Shown here piece by piece: positions 2-9,594 of a DNA stretch of 22,310 nucleotides (positions are counted from its first letter, which is position 1; each line of letters begins with the position of its first letter). A program made the translations under genes and the position numbers. This stretch comes from a virus, in the IMG/VR virus record IMGVR_UViG_3300032229_000179, positions 1 through 22,310 of that record; one strand, given 5' to 3'. The notes under the pieces are model-generated. The model was not told where the DNA came from. It did no database searches and saw only the letters and a program-made list of their open reading frames with translations.

Positions 2-208
2 AGGACATCAATCGACCAAATCAGAGTTAACTTAAATCATGTAGTTAAAACGAGCGAACAAGAGGTATTAGATGAGTTCTGCGGAGAGCTTTTAGATTCA
101 TTGGAGGTTTTATGCCAAATGGACTTAGAGTCGCTTAAATCGTTTAATAATGACATGAGATTATTTTTAGAACAACAATACAAGGAGGTAGAAAATGAAG
201 CTAAGTGA
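2..208 (+). CDS. 5'-truncated hypothetical protein
   Basis: An open frame runs from the first full codon at position 2 to a TGA at 206-208, giving about 68 residues; the start lies outside the window. The visible part is acidic and leucine-rich (for example EVLDEFCGELLDSLEVL) and looks helical. I do not recognise a family. Its last 14 bases overlap the start of the HTH gene, so the two are probably translationally coupled members of one operon. The frame is supported only by its length and by the overlap with the ribosome binding site of the next gene. Confidence 0.55.
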   Translation, partial: RTSIDQIRVNLNHVVKTSEQEVLDEFCGELLDSLEVLCQMDLESLKSFNNDMRLFLEQQYKEVENEAK

Positions 209-413
209 TTACAGAAAGAATAGGAATTTGAGTCAGCAGGAAGTTGCTGATAGGATGGGCGTAACACAAGCATTTGTATCAATAATCGAATCGCATAACA
301 ATCCAACAATTAAAACACTAAGGAATTATTTCAACGCTATGGGCTATACACTAAGTATCGAGCCAAAGTTCGAAGGGTACAAGTCCATACTAAAAAAGAA
401 AGAGTTATTATGA
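195..413 (+). CDS. XRE/Cro-C1 family HTH transcriptional regulator
   Basis: This 72-residue protein is essentially a single helix-turn-helix domain. Residues 13-40 follow the Cro/C1 pattern: LSQQEVADRMGVTQAFVSII, then E and a residue pair before NPTIKTL. It should bind operator DNA as a dimer and regulate phage transcription; no separate oligomerisation or protease-sensitive domain is present, so it is more Cro-like or antitoxin-like than a full CI repressor. The start is set by a strong AAGGAGG ribosome binding site at 182-188, unusual in this AT-rich genome where most starts lack one, suggesting high expression. It overlaps the preceding gene by 14 bases and the next by four (ATGA). Confidence 0.85.
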   Translation: MKLSDYRKNRNLSQQEVADRMGVTQAFVSIIESHNNPTIKTLRNYFNAMGYTLSIEPKFEGYKSILKKKELL

Positions 414-613
414 AAGTCAAATTAACATCAAAAAGAGAACTCCACGCTTATTTCAATTTAGGCCCGGATTCATTTATCAACTGGTTCTATTTCCGATTAA
501 ATACCAATAAAAGCATCAAAAAATTTGGTTTTACTATAGAAATAGATTTGCTAAAGCTTATAAATATTAGTATATTTACTATCGACAAAGATGATCCACA
601 TTTATTCATCTAA
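410..613 (+). CDS. Hypothetical protein, 67 aa
   Basis: A short gene starting in an ATGA overlap with the HTH gene, which supports it being translated. The protein has a basic N-terminus (MKVKLTSKRELHAYF), an aromatic patch (FINWFYFRLN) and a C-terminal stretch rich in Ile/Leu (LLKLINISIFTI). It has no cysteine pair, clear transmembrane helix or recognised motif. It could be a partner of the regulator, but only the operon position argues for this. Confidence 0.5.
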   Translation: MKVKLTSKRELHAYFNLGPDSFINWFYFRLNTNKSIKKFGFTIEIDLLKLINISIFTIDKDDPHLFI

Positions 614-624
614 AAGTTACAGAA

Positions 625-1215
625 ATGAATAATAAAATACATAACATGATGATCCAAGAGCCATTATTTTGGGACGGCAACTTTGAAATACCCACTAGTC
701 CTAAATCTCTTAAGATTGATGTTATAAAATCACAATTTGCATGCGAATTAAATAATATTTGGCATAGCAGATTACCGGTTATTCATTGGAGTAATGTAGT
801 TAGAAATAGATACTATATTTGTTATGGATTTAGCTATATGGGTATATGGATAGGATGTGCTATATGGAGTAGTCCAGTTAACCAAAATTTTGATATTGAA
901 TCTACATTAGAATTAAGGAGAATGGCTATTTCCGAATTGTGTCCTAAAAATACTGCTACATACACTATCAGTAAAATGATAAAAGATATTGAAACTAAAT
1001 TCCCACTAGTTACAAAATTAATATCTTATCAAGATACAGAAGTTCATAACGGTACTATTTATAAAGCTAGTAACTGGTTTATAGATGCTGAAACTAAATT
1101 CAATTCATGGGGAAATAGTAGAAAAAGATCAAACGATCAAAGCAAAGCAGATAAAATCAGATGGGGCTATATCACAAAAAACAATAAACAAAACAATAAT
1201 TATCAACAAACTTAA
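625..1215 (+). CDS. Mom-like DNA modification acyltransferase (copy A)
   Basis: This 196-residue protein carries the pattern of Mom-like phage proteins: WHSRLP near residue 47, an AIWSSPV strand, ELRRMAISELCPKNTA around 93-108, and LISYQDTEVHNGTIYKASNW at about 132-152. Mom proteins are GNAT-fold enzymes; phage Mu Mom adds a carbamoylmethyl group to adenine in phage DNA and protects it from restriction. The substrate here cannot be read from sequence. It is one of two Mom-like genes in the window; the other is at 5278-5913 and is clearly divergent, sharing mainly EL-R-x-x-I and SYxDTExxHNGxIYxAxNW. The C-terminal tail is rich in Lys, Asn and Gln. A plain GNAT acetyltransferase is the main alternative. 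Confidence 0.72.
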   Translation: MNNKIHNMMIQEPLFWDGNFEIPTSPKSLKIDVIKSQFACELNNIWHSRLPVIHWSNVVRNRYYICYGFSYMGIWIGCAIWSSPVNQNFDIESTLELRRMAISELCPKNTATYTISKMIKDIETKFPLVTKLISYQDTEVHNGTIYKASNWFIDAETKFNSWGNSRKRSNDQSKADKIRWGYITKNNKQNNNYQQT

Positions 1216-1229
1216 CTAAAAATTAAATT

Positions 1230-1673
1230 ATGAAAGAGTTAATTAAAAAGATGGTCGCAATCCAGTCAGAACTGAAAGCACCAAAGAACCAAGTCAATTC
1301 CTTCGGGAAGTACAAATATCGCTCATGTGAGGATATTATCGAGGCAGTTAAGCCGTTATTAGCAAAGCACCAACTTTATATGAACATTTCCGATAGTGTT
1401 GTAGAAATCGGTGGTAAAAATTACGTAGAAGCATTGGTAACTATTTATGATGGAGAAAATCAGCTAACTACTAAGGCTTATGCAAGAGAATCTCTAGATA
1501 AGAAAGGTATGGATGATGCACAGCAAACCGGAGCGACAAGCAGTTACTCTCGTAAATATGCACTATCAGGCTGTTTCGGTCTAGACGATACAAAAGATGC
1601 AGATGCAACAAACACTCATGGCAAAGAAGCGACGCCAGTAAATAGCTTTAAACCCTCAAACACCTTTTTATAA
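1230..1673 (+). CDS. erf: ERF family single-strand annealing protein
   Basis: This 147-residue protein matches the ERF recombinase family. It has FGKYKYRSCEDIIEAVKPLL near residues 25-44 and the hallmark QQTGATSSYSRKYALSGCFG, then LDD, around 98-120. ERF proteins anneal complementary single strands during phage recombination and genome circularisation. A YqaJ exonuclease downstream (2063-2710) would supply the single-stranded ends, making a lambda exo/beta-like pair. Past about residue 125 the sequence is a short, low-complexity tail (NTHGKEATPVNSFKPSNTFL). The stop overlaps the next start as TAATG. Confidence 0.9.
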   Translation: MKELIKKMVAIQSELKAPKNQVNSFGKYKYRSCEDIIEAVKPLLAKHQLYMNISDSVVEIGGKNYVEALVTIYDGENQLTTKAYARESLDKKGMDDAQQTGATSSYSRKYALSGCFGLDDTKDADATNTHGKEATPVNSFKPSNTFL

Positions 1674-1867
1674 TGGAAGAAGTAATTGAATACACCAAAA
1701 CCTTTGACCCTGTTAGATATGAGATCAACTGGGATAATGTTACATCACTAGAAGATTTAAAAGACATCTTAAGTTCACTAGAGTTAGCATTTACAATTCC
1801 TGCTGAGGTAGCCCCACCTAAACAAAAGCTACTCCACGACAAAGGAATACTTAAAATCAAAGAATAA
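1673..1867 (+). CDS. Hypothetical protein, 64 aa
   Basis: A small acidic protein lying between the ERF and YqaJ genes, coupled on both sides by TAATG overlaps. The middle (NVTSLEDLKDILSSLELAFT) looks like an amphipathic helix, followed by a Pro-rich turn (PAEVAPPKQK) and a basic C-terminus. No known family is recognised. Its position inside the recombination block suggests an accessory role there, but nothing in the sequence shows one. The frame is supported by the neat one-base overlaps rather than by homology. Confidence 0.6.
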   Translation: MEEVIEYTKTFDPVRYEINWDNVTSLEDLKDILSSLELAFTIPAEVAPPKQKLLHDKGILKIKE

Positions 1868-2082
1868 TGAAAGGCGATCAAATTATAGCATGGGTATTAA
1901 TTATTAGTACCTTTCTAATCGGAGGCAAGTCTTTAGGACTATTAGACATCACTTGGACTATTGCTTTTGCACCGGTAGCTACTTTAATGATAACTACTTT
2001 GGTTATATTTGTACTTAGCTTTATCTTTATGTATAAGGCAATCACTAAAAAAGAGAGGGAAGATGAAGACGATAGAGCATAA
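1867..2082 (+). CDS. Small two-helix membrane protein
   Basis: A 71-residue protein with two strongly hydrophobic stretches, about residues 6-25 (IIAWVLIISTFLIGG) and 30-56 (ITWTIAFAPVATLMITTLVI and onward), ending in a highly charged tail (KKEREDEDDRA). It should sit in the inner membrane with the charged end in the cytoplasm. It is in the middle of the recombination genes, coupled to the gene before by TAATG and overlapping the YqaJ start by 20 bases. Candidate roles are superinfection exclusion or membrane anchoring of early proteins; holin is less likely because the lysis cassette is elsewhere on the other strand. Confidence 0.65.
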   Translation: MKGDQIIAWVLIISTFLIGGKSLGLLDITWTIAFAPVATLMITTLVIFVLSFIFMYKAITKKEREDEDDRA

Positions 2083-2710
2083 AAGCCCTGAATGGTTCAA
2101 AGTTAGAAGCGGAAAGTTTACTCCTAGTGAACTCCATAAGCTGATGACCGAACCTAAGAGCAAAGCGGATATTCTATCAGTTGGAGCGATAACCTATATC
2201 AAAGAAAAGATAGCAGAAACACTAATTGAGAACCTGCCAAATGAAAATGAATTTACAAATGCTGCGACAGCTTGGGGAAACTCTTACGAGGATGAAGCAA
2301 TATCTCTATTCGCTGATTTATCGGATACGGAGATTATCAAACCCGGCTTTATTGAGCAGAATGATTACTTTGGCGGAACTCCTGATGGTATTGCTGCAGA
2401 TGGTTCTTTTGGTATTGAGGTTAAGTGTCCTTATAACGCTACTATCCATTTGGATAATCTTATTCTCGATCCTTTGGATTTCCCGAAAGTTCGTAAAGAG
2501 TATTATTACCAAATTCAAGGCTATGCGTTATTGACCGGTATTGAGGATTGGTATTTTATCAGCTACGACCCACGTCAGCAAGATCCGTTCAAGTTGAGAT
2601 ATATCGTAGTAAAGCGAGATAAAGAAGTACAAAAAAGAATCATTGAAAAACTTAAAATAGCAAACGATTACAAACAAAAATTAATTAACAATCTAAAACA
2701 ATTAAAATGA
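2063..2710 (+). CDS. YqaJ-like exonuclease
   Basis: A 215-residue nuclease of the YqaJ/lambda-exonuclease type (PD-(D/E)XK fold). Visible motifs are the N-terminal SPEWFKVRSGKFTPSELHKL, WGNSYEDEAI, the catalytic core FGGTPDGIAADGSFGIEVKC (D of PDG, then E and K of EVK), and YYYQIQGYALLTG. It should resect double-stranded DNA ends 5' to 3' to give single strands for the ERF protein upstream. I place the start at 2063, after the purine run GAGAGGGA at 2053-2060; the longer frame from 2009 would add 18 residues that lie inside the membrane protein gene and do not fit the family. It ends in an ATGA overlap with the next gene. Confidence 0.9.
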   Translation: MKTIEHKSPEWFKVRSGKFTPSELHKLMTEPKSKADILSVGAITYIKEKIAETLIENLPNENEFTNAATAWGNSYEDEAISLFADLSDTEIIKPGFIEQNDYFGGTPDGIAADGSFGIEVKCPYNATIHLDNLILDPLDFPKVRKEYYYQIQGYALLTGIEDWYFISYDPRQQDPFKLRYIVVKRDKEVQKRIIEKLKIANDYKQKLINNLKQLK

Positions 2711-2985
2711 GTACAGAAAAGAAAACCCAGTACTGCGGTTCAGCACAAGAGTTAGGCGACAGCTTATTAATCGACCTAAACATCAATCAGTTAAGAGAAA
2801 TCTTATCTAATCCTGATAACGCTCAATTCAAGAAAGAGTTCACTACGAAAGATGGGCAAACTCAGGAAGTAATTAAATTAAAAGCCGTTAAACGCAAAGA
2901 GGCACAAGGTTATTCTACCCACTTCTTATGTTTAAATGATTATGTCAAAGGTGAGAAAGCTCAAGAAAAAGATCTCCCTTTCTAA
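2707..2985 (+). CDS. Small protein with SSB-like C-terminal tail
   Basis: A 92-residue protein next to the exonuclease, joined by ATGA. Its C-terminus is EKAQEKDLPF, closely resembling the acidic D-x-P-F tip through which bacterial single-strand binding proteins recruit partners. The body has alternating hydrophobic and charged residues (FTTKDGQTQEVIKLKAVKRK) that could form a short beta barrel, plus an N-terminal helix LNINQLREIL. The length is well below that of a typical SSB OB-fold protein. An unusual phage ssDNA-binding protein is the best guess; a protein that only mimics the SSB tail to recruit host repair factors is the alternative. The last 50 bases overlap the next gene. Confidence 0.55.
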   Translation: MSTEKKTQYCGSAQELGDSLLIDLNINQLREILSNPDNAQFKKEFTTKDGQTQEVIKLKAVKRKEAQGYSTHFLCLNDYVKGEKAQEKDLPF

Positions 2986-3373
2986 AATCAAGTTTACCGA
3001 CGATTATCGTTGGGACTTAGCTTTTGAAGCAATCAAGGAATTAACAGGAGTTAGCCCGAACGCCATTAGAAGGTCTAGTAGGGTTACTCCACTTCCTGCT
3101 GCTAGGATGATGTTGGCTTACCTAATGTACAAGGATTTAGGAATGACACCAGCTTATATTTCTCATCAAATGAATAAGGATAGAACAAATCTTTATTACG
3201 AGATTTCAGCACTAGAGGAGTATAAGCAGACAGACCCTTACAAAAGCTATTACGAAGCGTTTAGCGAATTATTTTACAAGAAATTAAAAGACTTAGGTTA
3301 TTGTTGTCCTTGCTGTGGAGCATTAGAGCCATTAGTAAAAGGAGACAAGCCATTAAAACCAAATAAACAATGA
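2936..3373 (+). CDS. DnaA domain IV-like DNA-binding protein (diverged)
   Basis: A protein of up to 145 residues. The middle region (about 52-95, AARMMLAYLMYKDLGMTPAY followed by ISHQMNKDRTNLYYEIS) has the shape of DnaA domain IV, the helix-turn-helix that reads DnaA boxes: an Arg-start helix, YLMYKDLGM, then I-x-x-x-x-x-KDRT in place of the usual GRDHST. The C-terminus has a CCPCCGALEP cysteine cluster that may bind zinc. There is no AAA+ ATPase. Start choice is uncertain: ATG at 2936 or 2942, neither with a good ribosome binding site, and both give a 44-50 base overlap with the previous gene. A clearer DnaA domain IV protein is encoded at 4083-4646. Confidence 0.62.
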   Translation: MIMSKVRKLKKKISLSKIKFTDDYRWDLAFEAIKELTGVSPNAIRRSSRVTPLPAARMMLAYLMYKDLGMTPAYISHQMNKDRTNLYYEISALEEYKQTDPYKSYYEAFSELFYKKLKDLGYCCPCCGALEPLVKGDKPLKPNKQ

Positions 3374-4071
3374 GAGTAATAAATTTTAGCGGTGGAAAGA
3401 CATCTGCATTGATGACTATTCTGCTAAAGCCTACGGAAGAAGATATTGTCTTGTTTACTGATACCGGTAGAGAACATCCGTTGACTTACAAGTTTATAGA
3501 TGACTTTGAATCAAATGAAGGTATCAAGGTAACTAAAATTTCTTATGATGGAGGATTCGAAGGCATGCTAGAGAAGAATAAGTTTCTTCCTAACCCAATG
3601 ATCCGTAAATGCACCGTAGAACTTAAAATTAAAACTGCTAAGAGATACTTACGCTCAATAGGAATACAAAGATTCGATAGTTATATTGGATTTAGAGCTG
3701 ATGAAGATAGAAGGGTAAAAACCTACAAGCAAATGCACAAAAAGGTAACCCCACACTTCCCACTTTATGACATGGGTATAACTAAAGACGATGTAAACCA
3801 ATATTGGGAATCTAAGCCTTATAAGTTAGAAATACCTTCAATATTAGGCAACTGCGATTTATGCTTCCTAAAGGGTAAAAATGCGATTATTACTATATTG
3901 CAACATTATCCTGAGTTGGCTGACAAGTGGATTGCAGATGAGAAACGAATCGGTGCTACTTACTTTAAGGACATTAGCTACGAAGAATTGCTAAATTTAG
4001 CACAAAAACAATTATCTTTATTTGAATTAGACAAACAATTACCTGCATACTCTTGCAGTTGCACAAATTAA
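3370..4071 (+). CDS. PAPS reductase-family ATP pyrophosphatase
   Basis: A 233-residue member of the phosphoadenosine-phosphosulfate reductase/adenine nucleotide alpha-hydrolase superfamily. It has the PP-loop FSGGKTSA at residues 6-13, FTDTGREHP near 29-37, IRKCTVELKI at 78-87 and GFRADEDRRV around 107-116. Six cysteines stand out: C81, C162 and C165 (GNCDLCFLKG) and C229/C231 (YSCSCTN), with an arrangement that could hold a metal or iron-sulfur cluster. The family includes true PAPS reductases and enzymes such as DndC that activate a substrate with ATP in DNA sulfur modification. No PAPS synthesis or dnd partner gene is seen. The setting between DNA-binding and Mom-like genes suggests nucleic-acid modification, which is inference. 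Confidence 0.8.
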   Translation: MRVINFSGGKTSALMTILLKPTEEDIVLFTDTGREHPLTYKFIDDFESNEGIKVTKISYDGGFEGMLEKNKFLPNPMIRKCTVELKIKTAKRYLRSIGIQRFDSYIGFRADEDRRVKTYKQMHKKVTPHFPLYDMGITKDDVNQYWESKPYKLEIPSILGNCDLCFLKGKNAIITILQHYPELADKWIADEKRIGATYFKDISYEELLNLAQKQLSLFELDKQLPAYSCSCTN

Positions 4072-4082
4072 AAACCAAAATT

Positions 4083-4646
4083 ATGATACATAACCCAAAA
4101 CCAGTAGATTTAGAACTATTAAAAGACACTTGCTGTCGTATTTTTGAAGTAAATATTGATGATTTATTAAGTCCTTCCAGAAAGCGTCATATCATGGATG
4201 GTAGACGAGCATTTTTCTATATCCTTAGAACCGAGTATGGTTATAGCGAACTAGGAATCTCACGAGCAATTGGAGGCACTAGAGACCACTCTACAATCAT
4301 GCACTCTAACTACTCAACTGCTGACTTATTAGACGCTGATTATACCTTTGCGAGTAAATACAAGCAACTATACGAAAGCTTTACATTACGTCAATATGTT
4401 AAGCCATTACCGCCAAAACCTAAGACGTACAATATGAAATTAAAGCCTATCTACAACTACTATACTGACGATATGTTGGCTAAGTCTAAGCTGAAGATGG
4501 ATTATAGAGTTAAACTACTTTCTGATAATTACAAGAAGGATGTGATTAAATTTATGGACAAATACGGCAATATTACAGCTTGTACGGTTAAGTTTAACAT
4601 ATCTAGACTGCTTGTTCAACGAATCATAAAGGAGATGGCAAAATGA
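4083..4646 (+). CDS. DnaA domain IV-containing protein
   Basis: A 187-residue protein whose N-terminal half is a stand-alone DnaA domain IV: an initial helix LLKDTCCRIFEVNIDDLLSP, SRKRHIMDGRRAFFYILR, then YSELGISRAIGGTRDHSTIM. RDHST is the signature that contacts the DnaA box in host DnaA. The ATPase domain is missing. The C-terminal third (YGNITACTVKFNISRLLVQR) looks like a second helix-turn-helix. It may bind origin DNA with the initiator encoded next, or act as a decoy for host DnaA sites. I prefer the ATG at 4083, which does not overlap the previous gene; an upstream ATG at 4053 would add ten residues. It ends in an ATGA overlap with the initiator gene. Confidence 0.82.
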   Translation: MIHNPKPVDLELLKDTCCRIFEVNIDDLLSPSRKRHIMDGRRAFFYILRTEYGYSELGISRAIGGTRDHSTIMHSNYSTADLLDADYTFASKYKQLYESFTLRQYVKPLPPKPKTYNMKLKPIYNYYTDDMLAKSKLKMDYRVKLLSDNYKKDVIKFMDKYGNITACTVKFNISRLLVQRIIKEMAK

Positions 4647-5278
4647 GCGGATTTTTCTATACGATGCCTGCTGCTGTTTTCTACGATAAAGAGCTTTCTG
4701 CTAATGCCAAATTGATTGCTTGTATCATTGCAAATTTCTGCGATAAATACGGAGTTTGTACGGTTACAAATAAGCATCTAGGTAATGTTTTAGGGAAGTC
4801 AGATCGTAGTCTTTCTAGGCTTATTTCTGAGCTAAATGAAGCAGGTTATATTGACGTAAAAGTAGATATTTTAGACTCAAATAAACGTACGATTACCCTC
4901 ACGACAAAAATGTCTATACCTCACGACAAAAATGACGTGACCTCACGACAAAAATGTCTACATAATAATACTATAGATAATAATATTAAAAATAATATAA
5001 AAGATGTTGAGGAAATTGTTAATTATTTGAACGAAAAGACAGGCTCTAAATACAGAACTGGAAATCAAAATACTTGTAGGTCTATCAACGGAAGATTAAG
5101 CGAAGGATATACCGTAGAAGATTTTAAAACCGTTATAGATTCACAGGTTGCGAGATGGACAGGAACTGAGTACGAACAATACCTAACTCCAAATACTTTA
5201 TTTAGTCCTAGCAAATTCGAAAAATATCTTAACTTTGCTAAACAACCTAAAGAACAAAAACCAAAAATCAAAGCATAA
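4643..5278 (+). CDS. Winged-helix replication initiator
   Basis: A 211-residue protein with an N-terminal winged helix (residues about 14-75: LSANAKLIACIIANFCDKYG, TNKHLGNVLGKSDRSLSRLI, LNEAGYI) and a C-terminal domain like the conserved phage replication C-terminal domain seen in lambda O/DnaD-like initiators (EEIVNYLNEKTGSKYRTGNQ through TPNTLFSPSKFEKYLN, about 122-195). The two are joined by a linker rich in Asn, Ile and Lys. That linker is encoded by three 22-bp-spaced direct repeats and an AT-rich run, so the gene carries the likely origin. It would bind the repeats and load the DnaB helicase encoded at 5913. Overlaps with both neighbours (ATGA, TAATG) indicate coupled translation. Confidence 0.82.
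   Translation: MSGFFYTMPAAVFYDKELSANAKLIACIIANFCDKYGVCTVTNKHLGNVLGKSDRSLSRLISELNEAGYIDVKVDILDSNKRTITLTTKMSIPHDKNDVTSRQKCLHNNTIDNNIKNNIKDVEEIVNYLNEKTGSKYRTGNQNTCRSINGRLSEGYTVEDFKTVIDSQVARWTGTEYEQYLTPNTLFSPSKFEKYLNFAKQPKEQKPKIKA
4897..4956 (+). repeat. Three origin iterons, 16 bp, 22-bp period
   Basis: CCTCACGACAAAAATG occurs without mismatch at 4897-4912, 4919-4934 and 4941-4956. The period is exactly 22 bp, about two helical turns, so all copies face the same side of the helix. The first and third copies continue as TCTATA/TCTACA; the middle one continues as ACGTGA. Copies one and three contain the dyad GACA-AAAA-TGTC. Because 22 is not a multiple of three, the copies are read in three different frames (LTTKM, PHDKN, SRQK), so the repetition is at DNA level. 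They are the expected binding sites for the initiator whose gene contains them. Confidence 0.85.
4957..5006 (+). other. AT-rich candidate DNA unwinding element of the origin
   Basis: Directly after the third iteron the sequence is almost only A and T for about 50 bases (runs such as ATAATAATACTATAGATAAT). This is the layout of a lambda-type origin: initiator repeats flanked by an easily melted segment where the helicase is loaded. It also encodes the Asn/Ile/Lys-rich linker of the initiator. The functional role is inferred from arrangement. Confidence 0.65.
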
Positions 5279-5913
5279 TGAGTATTAAGAATTTATATTC
5301 AGTTAAATCAATAGACAGCTACGAGTGCTATGATTGGCTACTGAACAAGCACTATGCTAAAAGAATACCATCAATAAGTTATTCATTCGGTTTGTTTAAA
5401 GAGAATATTTTAAATGGCGTAATGACCATTGGTAAACCAGCTAGTAATTCACTTTGTGAAGGTATATGCGGATATGAGAATAGTAAATACGTTTATGAGT
5501 TAAACAGATTGGTTATAAACGAAGGATTAGATAAAAATGTATTGAGTTTTTTTGTATCAAATGCAATTAAGCTAATAAAAGAAAATCTGATTATTGTTAG
5601 TTATGCTGATACTGAATGGGGACACAATGGATATATTTATCAAGCAACAAATTGGATTTATACCGGATGCACAAAGGAAAGAACTGATATTGGACTTGAA
5701 GATGGATCGCACTCTAGGCACTATGACAAAAATTTAGATTATGCAAATAATAGGAAGAAAAGAAGTAGCAAACATAGATATGTATTTTTTATTGGTGATA
5801 TGAAAAACCAATTTAAGAGCCAGTTAAGATACAAGATAGAAAGTTATCCAAAGGGCGATAATAAAAGATACGATGCTAGTTACATACCTAAACCACAATT
5901 AAATTTATTCTAA
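5278..5913 (+). CDS. Mom-like DNA modification acyltransferase (copy B)
   Basis: A 211-residue Mom-family protein. It has WLLNKHYAKRIPSISYSFGL at about 20-39, the strand NGVMTIGKPAS, YELNRLVIN around 75-83, and IVSYADTEWGHNGYIYQATN, then W, at about 103-123. These are the conserved positions of the GNAT-fold Mom enzymes that modify adenine in phage DNA after replication. The C-terminus is basic (NRKKRSSKHRYVFF) and may help DNA binding. It sits between the initiator and DnaB helicase genes, linked to each by TAATG, so it should be made with the replication proteins. It is diverged from copy A at 625-1215, so the two may use different substrates or sites. Confidence 0.78.
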   Translation: MSIKNLYSVKSIDSYECYDWLLNKHYAKRIPSISYSFGLFKENILNGVMTIGKPASNSLCEGICGYENSKYVYELNRLVINEGLDKNVLSFFVSNAIKLIKENLIIVSYADTEWGHNGYIYQATNWIYTGCTKERTDIGLEDGSHSRHYDKNLDYANNRKKRSSKHRYVFFIGDMKNQFKSQLRYKIESYPKGDNKRYDASYIPKPQLNLF

Positions 5914-7268
5914 TGACACGCATACAACCACACAATATCGAAATCGAAGAACAGGTGCTAGGGATTATCCTAAATGAACCTAAAGCATTTGTTACTGCGG
6001 TAAATATTATAAACGCTAATTGCTTTTACAAAAATGAACACCAAACTGTATTTAACGCTTTTACTAGCCTGTATTCTCAAGCAAAGCCAATAGACCTAGT
6101 GTCAGTAACTACCTACCTAAGAAACAACAACCACTTAGATAACGTAGGCGGCAACTTCTTTCTGATGGAGCTTATGGAGCGTGCAGGGACTTATTCTTCT
6201 TTCGAGTATTTCTGCCATACATTACTAGAATTAAGCGAACGTAGAGAGGGAATTGAGAAGTCAGCAAAACTAATCGACAGCCTATACGACCTATCTACCG
6301 ATTTAGACGAAAATATGGTAATTGCAAACGAAGTCGTTTTAAGCCTTTCTAACGAAGTTTCTAATGTCGGTGGTGTCCAACTATCAACTGCACTACTTGA
6401 GATGATTAGAGAGCAGGAAAATGAGCTTAGAGGGGAATTCTCTGGTTGCAAGAGCAAGTACGTTGATTTAGATCGAGTAATCGTAGGCTTTAAGAACCAA
6501 CAAGTTGCTGTATTAGCCGGTAGACCCGGAATGGGTAAAACAACCTTCGGGATTAACATTGCTTATAGACTTGCAAAGTACGATAAGACCCCAGTAGGTT
6601 TCTTTAGCTTAGAAATGAGTAGCGTAGAGTTAACCAAGAAGTTTGCGGCTATTGAATCACAAATTTGCAATTCTAGAATGACTATGTTGAATGAGAGACA
6701 AGTTTTAGATTACTTTAGTGCAATACAATCCGTAGGAGACTTGCCAATCTTTATCGACGATAAGCCAGGTGCTTCTATAGACGAGATTAGAGCAAGAGCA
6801 ATTACAATGAAGCGTAAGCATGACGTTAAGCTGATAGTTATCGACTATTTGCAACTAATTACGACCAAGTCTAGAAGCGGTAATAGAGAACAGGAGATTT
6901 CGGAGATTAGTAGAAAGGTAAAGCTATTGGCAAAGGAACTAAACATCCCAATTATCGCCATTTCTCAATTAAGCCGTCAGGTAGAACAATCAGACCCTAA
7001 AGTACCTTTCCTACACCACCTAAGAGAATCAGGAAGTATCGAGCAAGATGCGGATATGGTATTGATGTTATGGAGACCTGAGTACTATGATTATCCAAGT
7101 TTTGAATACGATGGAATAGACACAGATTCTCGTGGAATGGTAGTTACCTATGTGAGAAAGAATAGGAATGGAGAGACCGGTAAAGCCCTAATGAAGTGTA
7201 ATTTGGCATATGCAAGTTTCTACGATAATAATGTTGATAATTTTATGTTGCCAAATACAGACTTTTGA
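5913..7268 (+). CDS. dnaB: Replicative DNA helicase, DnaB family
   Basis: A 451-residue helicase of normal DnaB length. The N-terminal helical domain starts with IEIEEQVLGIILNEPKAF. The RecA-like motor has Walker A GRPGMGKTT at residues 203-211, FFSLEMSS, Walker B LIVIDYLQL near 307-315, the AISQLSRQVE block, ESGSIEQDADMVLMLWRPE, and a C-terminal RKNRNGETG that includes the arginine-finger region. It unwinds the fork at the phage origin, presumably loaded by the initiator at 4643-5278. No separate loader gene is seen. It starts in a TAATG overlap with the second Mom-like gene. Confidence 0.96.
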   Translation: MTRIQPHNIEIEEQVLGIILNEPKAFVTAVNIINANCFYKNEHQTVFNAFTSLYSQAKPIDLVSVTTYLRNNNHLDNVGGNFFLMELMERAGTYSSFEYFCHTLLELSERREGIEKSAKLIDSLYDLSTDLDENMVIANEVVLSLSNEVSNVGGVQLSTALLEMIREQENELRGEFSGCKSKYVDLDRVIVGFKNQQVAVLAGRPGMGKTTFGINIAYRLAKYDKTPVGFFSLEMSSVELTKKFAAIESQICNSRMTMLNERQVLDYFSAIQSVGDLPIFIDDKPGASIDEIRARAITMKRKHDVKLIVIDYLQLITTKSRSGNREQEISEISRKVKLLAKELNIPIIAISQLSRQVEQSDPKVPFLHHLRESGSIEQDADMVLMLWRPEYYDYPSFEYDGIDTDSRGMVVTYVRKNRNGETGKALMKCNLAYASFYDNNVDNFMLPNTDF

Positions 7269-8538: not shown

Positions 8539-8926
8539 ACACTGGCTCGATCTCTATTACCAGCTTGTCAGCACCTTCCCGATAAGCGTACACTAACTCT
8601 TGTACATATCGGACATTATCGTCTTTAAATATTTGTCCTTTAGCTAAGTCTAGAAAGCATTTAGCCCATAACCCACACTTGTTATCCAAATCCCAATTTT
8701 TAAGCTCTCTATGGTAGGTTATTTTGACTCTGACAGGTTCTTCTATTAACCCTATCTCAGCAAACTCCTTAGACCATAAGAATTGCTTTAACTCATGGAC
8801 GATTCTTTGACGAACCGAGTAATGGATGCCTGCATAAATTGCATTGTAACCCAAATAAATCTTACGCTTTTTGAGCTTACCAATTTCAATAAATGTAGGC
8901 GGGTTATCATAAGTTAGCTTAATCAT
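8537..8926 (-). CDS. RusA-like Holliday junction resolvase
   Basis: A 129-residue protein ending in the RusA pattern: NWDLDNKCGLWAKCFLDLAK, then a FKDDNVRYVQELVYAYREGA segment. The Asp residues of DLDN and DDNV are the metal-binding acids of RusA, which cuts four-way junctions as a dimer. It would resolve recombination and replication intermediates before packaging. I choose the start at 8926, in an ATGA overlap with the methyltransferase stop, over a start six codons upstream. It is the last gene of the minus-strand operon, immediately before the shared terminator. Confidence 0.85.
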   Translation of the reverse strand: MIKLTYDNPPTFIEIGKLKKRKIYLGYNAIYAGIHYSVRQRIVHELKQFLWSKEFAEIGLIEEPVRVKITYHRELKNWDLDNKCGLWAKCFLDLAKGQIFKDDNVRYVQELVYAYREGADKLVIEIEPV

Positions 8927-9399
8927 TTTATGAAAGTAACCCAATGAGTTTGCATTTTAATACCCGACTTATGCCCAAATAAAGGTTGTTTGTCTGTTAG
9001 CTTTAATATCTCCTTTACTGGGAATCTTACTTCATTCCACTTAAATATTAAAACACCATTCGGCTTAAGAACTCTAAAACATTCCTCAAATCCCTTTCTT
9101 AACATTTCTCTCCAATCCCCTTGAAGTGATCCGTATTTTTTTGTTATTTGGCTATCGTTTTTCTGCTCAATATGAGGAGGGTCAAACACTACCAAATGAA
9201 AACTATTATCCGGTTGCTTTATATCTGTAAAATCACCAATAATATCAGGGGAGATTATATTAGTTTTTGTACCGCATGGGTATATATCAATATGAGTTTC
9301 ACATCTTCTATCTAGAAACAATGCCCTCTCGTCATTTTTGTTAAACCACATCCCTTTAGGGCCACAGCAAACATCTAAAACTACTGCGTTATCTTTCAT
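8923..9399 (-). CDS. Class I SAM-dependent methyltransferase, DPPH type
   Basis: A 158-residue methyltransferase. Motif I is VLDVCCGPKGMWF (residues 7-19), which binds S-adenosylmethionine, and motif IV is LVVFDPPHIE (about 69-78), the DPP[YFHW] catalytic loop typical of N6-adenine and N4-cytosine methylases. Then come LRKGFEECFRVLKPNGVLIF and KWNEVR. There is no obvious target-recognition domain, so sequence specificity is probably low or supplied by a partner. Its likely substrate is DNA, which would add to the two Mom-like enzymes, but a small-molecule or RNA substrate cannot be excluded. Confidence 0.8.
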   Translation of the reverse strand: MKDNAVVLDVCCGPKGMWFNKNDERALFLDRRCETHIDIYPCGTKTNIISPDIIGDFTDIKQPDNSFHLVVFDPPHIEQKNDSQITKKYGSLQGDWREMLRKGFEECFRVLKPNGVLIFKWNEVRFPVKEILKLTDKQPLFGHKSGIKMQTHWVTFIK

Positions 9400-9402
9400 A
9401 AT

Positions 9403-9594
9403 TTATTTTCTAATGCTTAGGAAGTCTATAATGGCTTCTATTTCGTCACAAATCTTTATCTGGAGAGCATACTTCTGAGGAGCGTTACTTTCTTCTAAAA
9501 GGTTATGAAGCTCGCCTAGCGTAAGCATATATTCAGCTAAATCGCCAAAGGTTAACTTCTCAGTTTGCTCCTCTTGTTTATCCTTTACAGCCAT
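9403..9594 (-). CDS. Hypothetical acidic protein, 63 aa
   Basis: A short helical protein (LTFGDLAEYMLTLGELHNLL, then ALQIKICDEIEAIIDFLSI) that overlaps the phosphoesterase stop by ten bases and ends three bases before the methyltransferase start. The spacing supports it as a real gene. It looks like a two- or three-helix bundle. No family or function is recognised. Confidence 0.55.
   Translation of the reverse strand: MAVKDKQEEQTEKLTFGDLAEYMLTLGELHNLLEESNAPQKYALQIKICDEIEAIIDFLSIRK

Follow-up and report, generated by a model that had tools for sequence, protein, structure and literature searches.

Two divergent Mom-family genes of separate ancestry and an apparently independent PP-loop gene in the early gene run of a virus record

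To our knowledge, the chemistry of Mom-type DNA modification has been worked out mainly in phage Mu, and PP-loop genes of the PAPS reductase (3'-phosphoadenosine-5'-phosphosulfate reductase) kind are common in phages without a proven function. In accounts of Mu, Mom is described as modifying adenine at N6 and as protecting against restriction (PMC7824862, PMC6483171). Lambda ninC is listed as encoding a PAPS reductase family protein and is nonessential when Q is supplied (PMC10695390), and SspD is named as a DNA phosphorothioation protein (PMC12707154). Both kinds of gene are listed for Psychrobacter phage Y8A, a PAPS reductase as ORF4 and, far apart from it, a Mom as ORF69 (PMC10434257), so that the combination is not new. 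The DNA analyzed here, the complete IMG/VR virus record IMGVR_UViG_3300032229_000179 of 22,310 bases (hereafter the window), encodes two divergent Mom-family proteins, here termed MomA (625–1215) and MomB (5278–5913), and between them a PP-loop protein (3370–4071). We assign a probability of roughly two-thirds to the reading that MomA and MomB are independently acquired accessory anti-restriction DNA modifiers, probably directed at different sites, and that the PP-loop gene is independent of them.

Both proteins belong to the Mom family. With the Pfam profile PF25680 (curated cut-off 27.1 bits), MomA scores 60.0 and MomB 119.5 bits, and with PHROG 1384, annotated as Mom-like DNA modification protein, 85.8 and 204.4 bits, respectively. 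A Mom profile search of the whole record returned exactly these two matches, and scores of this size exclude a chance similarity. The preliminary description of this DNA, made from the sequence alone, was thus right in seeing two Mom-type genes, and their divergence is considerable (28% identity over 153 columns). Conserved residues were compared in an 80-row Mom alignment free of duplicates, of the copies of the window in L001 and L002 (the labels L001 and higher denote contigs) and of Mom pieces with up to 150 matched residues, the latter including the second, cut Mom of L013. At 11 chosen columns MomB reads HYRSSDHYQNY, the pattern of 76 of the 80 rows, from which Mu Mom deviates at one. 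Ser90 of MomB falls in the column of Mu Mom Ser124, and the Mu Mom structure PDB 8bv8 bears the title "inactive mutant S124A". MomA retains R99, D137, H141, Y146 and N150 of the Mom columns. Purifying selection is seen in both genes, with Nei-Gojobori ratios of nonsynonymous to synonymous substitution rates (dN/dS) of 0.080 for MomA versus its L003 homologue and 0.081 for MomB versus L004, although these ratios are rough as dS is near saturation (2.0 and 3.1, respectively); for MomB versus L006, saturation left no ratio to be computed. Judging from these comparisons, both proteins are probably functional, and two divergent Mom-type genes that probably both work make more than one DNA mark plausible.

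Both genes are insertion polymorphisms. Contig L084, whose PP-loop protein is 98% identical to that of the window, is collinear with window positions 6–4068 at 83–91% DNA identity, except for 615–1204, the place of MomA. The end of the MomA reading frame, its final codons with the stop, falls in a spacer also present in L084, and this contig carries an extra stretch of its own, about 285 bases long, before orf410. Contig L085, with a PP-loop protein 91% identical to that of the window, has neither MomA nor MomB nor the DNA methyltransferase, and a Pfam Mom search of the whole L085 record (29,292 bases) gave no match. At the MomB site of L085 a single TAATGA joins the stop of the initiator-like gene and the start of the helicase gene, whereas in the window each edge of MomB has its own TAATGA. 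As the stop/start overlap exists unbroken in L085, the MomB place appears to be one where insertion is tolerated. The preliminary description had correctly placed MomB between initiator and helicase and had taken this as a hint that the modification is made in sequence at the fork; that proposal rests on gene order only, and the empty site in L085 explains the order better. Similarly, window 8912–9567 is unmatched in L085, where only about 175 bases are found, leaving no room for the methyltransferase. The open reading frame (ORF) at 9403–9594 beside the methyltransferase is likewise without a DNA match in L085, and a different short stretch (L085:14946–15122) lies opposite window 9400–9567; the methyltransferase may hence mark a variable site that holds more than the methyltransferase itself.

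The two Mom genes also have separate ancestries. In a tree of 82 rows (the 80-row alignment plus two phage rows), MomA groups with its homologue in contig L003 and with gp21 of Paenibacillus phage Dash (support 98/89), while MomB groups with L004 and others (98/98); the bootstrap was not fully settled (correlation 0.986), and the MomA/L003 stem and Dash are long branches. Being only 28% identical and placed in different parts of this tree, MomA and MomB are best explained as separate acquisitions. The L003 homologue is 80% identical to MomA, and the DNA of L003 matches the window over MomA only. In addition, the G+C content of MomA (0.293) and MomB (0.300) is below the 0.33–0.39 of all other genes checked but orf410.

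The genes at 195–7268 all lie on the plus strand with gaps of at most 14 nucleotides, many of them overlapping, and plausibly form a single operon. The features are as follows.

Start of the 195–7268 run, plus strand: small ORF with a helix-turn-helix (HTH) match, followed by another small ORF and then MomA.
625–1215, plus strand: MomA, divergent Mom-family protein of presumed GNAT fold, 196 amino acids, single-gene insertion (PF25680; empty site in L084; homologue in L003).
After MomA, plus strand: Erf-type annealing protein, then two small ORFs, part of the same run.
Before two further small ORFs and the PP-loop gene, plus strand: YqaJ-type exonuclease, part of the same run.
2936–3373, plus strand: small protein with a match like the DnaA C-terminal HTH (Pfam, 21.1 bits, below cut-off).
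3370–4071, plus strand: PP-loop protein (PAPS_reduct), NinC- and SspD-like, 233 amino acids, resident gene (PF01507; SspD profile).
4053–4646, plus strand: protein with a DnaA C-terminal HTH (Pfam, 42.6 bits, above cut-off).
4643–5278, plus strand: initiator-like gene, left flank of MomB.
5275–5280, plus strand: TAATGA, overlap of initiator stop and MomB start (left edge of MomB; position counted from the junction letters).
5278–5913, plus strand: MomB, canonical Mom-family protein, 211 amino acids, single-gene insertion (PF25680; exact empty site in L085).
5910–5915, plus strand: TAATGA, overlap of MomB stop and helicase start (right edge of MomB; position counted from the junction letters).
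5913–7268, plus strand: DnaB-like helicase, matching annotated replicative DNA helicases, right flank of MomB.
8923–9399, minus strand: DNA methyltransferase, 158 amino acids, with DPPH from residue 73, as already described (PHROG 954, 206 bits; PADLOC MTase_II, 184 bits).

The PP-loop gene is flanked by the genes of the two proteins that resemble the DnaA C-terminal HTH, and both are conserved in L085; a DnaA ATPase part was not detected by Pfam in either. Scans of the stretch for Rfam families and tRNAs came back empty, and the database matches of the DnaB-like helicase are distant and mixed, pointing to no host.

Several observations weigh against regarding both Moms as separately gained DNA modifiers. 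The G+C content of orf410, which adjoins MomA, is still lower (0.275), and the exact edges, the low G+C content and the L003 match suggest rather than prove that L084 and L085 represent the state before a gain and not after a loss. Moreover, the activity of MomA and MomB on DNA, their chemistry, their different site specificities and the anti-restriction benefit are inferred. MomA in particular bears Thr112 in the column of the catalytic-site serine (Mu Ser124), lacks the C-terminal YPKGDNKRYD block of MomB-type proteins, aligns ambiguously at the HY pair and yielded only a weak structure model (mean pLDDT, the predicted local distance difference test, 59.1), and could therefore act on another substrate.

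A shift of MomA to a protein, RNA or small-molecule substrate within the GNAT fold, with MomB alone modifying DNA, is nevertheless unlikely in our estimation. It would account for the residues in which MomA deviates from most Moms, namely those in the columns HY, Ser, Gln and Tyr (IWRTSDHYKNW in MomA, HYRSSDHYQNY in the common pattern), for the absence of the C-terminal block and for the tie of Mu Mom (8bv8) and RimI as first matches of the model in VIA-align (Z 11.7 each). On the other hand, MomA is over the Pfam Mom cut-off with the Asp, His, Tyr, Asn and Arg columns retained, Dash gp21 likewise lacks the C-terminal block yet scores 78.4 bits to Mom, and 8bv8 is the first Foldseek match of the MomA model (E 1.4e-5), weak as this model is. 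At the HY columns the 80-row alignment sets I45-W46, with H47 adjoining, whereas two six-row alignments set H54-W55, which can serve as the HY pair. H54 is favored as the Mom histidine because its distance to the next conserved glycine (H54-G68, 14) resembles that in Mu Mom (H58-G72, 14) and MomB (H25-G38, 13).

Redundancy of the two proteins on the same target, one being a passing copy soon lost, would fit their status as single-gene insertions absent from close relatives. At 28% identity and with both genes under constraint, however, we hold it to be rather improbable, and co-resident Moms elsewhere favor complementary use. For MomB, 118 stretches of viral contigs were confirmed as holding relatives, and the 80 best were retained; together with L003 these 80 make up the 81 Mom contigs counted here (L003–L083). 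At least two Mom genes or pieces occur in eight of them, about six independent cases: L009 has three, L010 two, L013 two, of which one is truncated where the contig ends, L021 and L022 two each (their DNA being 99.8% identical along 10 kb, L022 duplicating L021), L054 four, the last reaching the contig end, and L064 and L074 two each (DNA 89–96% identical where aligned). Within a contig the copies are 25–59% identical, and in the tree those of L009, L010, L021, L054, L064 and L074 fall into different clades, with the four of L054 in four places. The two to four Moms mostly form tandem arrays whose ORFs overlap or lie close together (L054:2167–4720, L009:4908–7122, L021:9995–11838, L064:3368–4983, L010:1106–4293). 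Stacking of divergent Moms may be a general habit of phages. MomB relatives are present in 268 of 50,697 phage records, and none of these 268 records of the isolated-phage collection has two MomB-type places. The nearest phage relatives of MomA are only 27–38% identical. Contig scans with exact short peptide patterns, by which distant relatives are missed, gave only L003 among viral contigs and two Paenibacillus larvae records among plasmids, and none of 53 candidate stretches from bacterial genomes was confirmed. A literature search on Mom and its chemistry returned no account of several Moms in one phage, which does not exclude that one exists.

The PP-loop protein is the PAPS-reductase-family member with five cysteines that had been described, scoring 43.4 bits to PF01507 (PAPS_reduct, cut-off 22.5), with cysteines exactly at positions 81, 162, 165, 229 and 231, all invariant in 34 aligned homologues. 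Its structure model (pLDDT 85.8) gives Z 12–13 to PAPS/APS (adenosine-5'-phosphosulfate) reductases and Z 10–11.5 to the Fe-S sulfur transferases LarE, NcsA and TtuA. True PAPS reductases (CysH) carry a C-terminal ECG catalytic motif, and this identity was rejected for the window protein, which ends in YSCSCTN instead; CSCT or CACT is found in 34 of 34 homologues, and the nucleotide loop reads SGGKTS. Phage homologues, with 200 phage records matched, are annotated as NinC or PAPS reductase. The PADLOC SspD profile matches residues 2–211 at 106.5 bits (E 4.7e-31; PADLOC has no curated cut-off here), and five other phage homologues score lower (51.8–84.3 bits). No match to SspA, SspB or SspC was obtained among 14 window proteins scanned, in a record that may be a fragment. 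The SspD match keeps open a role of the PP-loop protein in placing sulfur on nucleic acid. By sequence, "PptA" (PDB 21fy; E 1.7e-6, or 4.3e-6 by profile) comes closest among solved chains; this entry is not in the fold library used (entries to April 2026), and a literature search gave nothing useful on the role of PptA.

The PP-loop gene does not travel with Mom. It is present without Mom in L084, L085 and L093, where the neighboring genes are conserved, and a Mom family search found Mom in none of 49 viral contigs holding a PP-loop relative. The same search, when verified, matched the window itself and all 32 Mom contigs tried, but with fragments making up many of the 49, absence counts are soft. 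Conversely, in the fetched stretches of the 81 Mom contigs, PP-loop relatives appear in two, L056 at 169 bits and L013 at 33 bits with no Pfam match, and PF01507 was found in one of 29 Mom contigs searched whole, again L056. Besides the window, L056 (4144–6790) is the only clear contig with both genes, and the same region has YqaJ-like and DnaB-like matches and weak DnaA-HTH-like matches. Clustering of ORFs within 4 kb of the PP-loop gene across the 49 loci, as a search for a conserved partner, yielded families confined to 22 loci at most. The largest cluster, of 22 minus-strand members with a median of 69 amino acids, is probably the antisense frame of the PP-loop gene itself, and the next largest occurs in 11 loci. 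With co-occurrence failing in both directions, a functional link between the PP-loop gene and Mom was rejected as the default, and we judge the PP-loop gene to be resident and not part of Mom cassettes. Of the layered or new modification proposed in the preliminary description, the part concerning two divergent Moms and more than one mark therefore stands, while the membership of the PP-loop enzyme in the same pathway does not. That this enzyme activates or thiolates a substrate to which one or both Moms add is very unlikely, since the common operon-like run, the invariant cysteines, the full-length SspD match, L056 and phage Y8A are outweighed by nearest relatives keeping the PP-loop gene without Moms and by the co-occurrence counts, soft as these are.

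Under the preferred reading, a tailed phage would have acquired MomA and MomB, both of presumed GNAT fold, independently of each other, each as a one-gene cassette inserted in its early operon. In the infected cell, each would most likely modify the DNA of the phage by attaching a small group at N6 of adenine, like Mu Mom, and partly different target sequences would confer resistance to more host restriction enzymes. The methyltransferase would be the third such accessory gene, gained singly into a conserved backbone in which the putative NinC/SspD-like PP-loop enzyme was already resident, working independently of the Moms and the methyltransferase. Divergent Moms kept together in one phage would offer a direct route to finding out what fixes the target sequence and the added group of a Mom, and would suggest that phages collect Moms much like methyltransferases; the lack of association between the PP-loop gene and Mom disposes of a connection that is tempting but lacks support. 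A bolder idea, and a long shot, is that phages stack two to four divergent Moms from different clades with different targets or added groups, and that the SspD-like enzyme adds a backbone-type mark by means of host sulfur donors; if true, one virion DNA would bear three or four chemically different marks.

Compared with Mu Mom, a methylcarbamoylase (8bv8) matched by the same PF25680 profile, MomB shares the H, Y, R, S, S, D, Y, Q, N and Y columns, whereas MomA, whose weak model has 8bv8 as its first Foldseek match, carries threonine in place of Ser124 and is missing the C-terminal YPK block. In contrast to Mu, the window has two divergent Moms, and these are neighbors of recombination and replication genes in an early gene run. 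Among the PHROG 1384 phages (for example Acinetobacter JeffCo, Listeria and Proteus phages), MomB is 52–63% identical to its best matches. With the NinC or phage PAPS reductase family (PHROG 424) the PP-loop protein shares the PF01507 domain, but its gene lies, in this lineage, between phage recombination and initiator-like genes. From CysH it differs in the SGGKTS loop and the C-terminal CSCT, and of the SspABCD phosphorothioation system it matches the SspD profile, with no SspA, SspB or SspC among the window proteins scanned.

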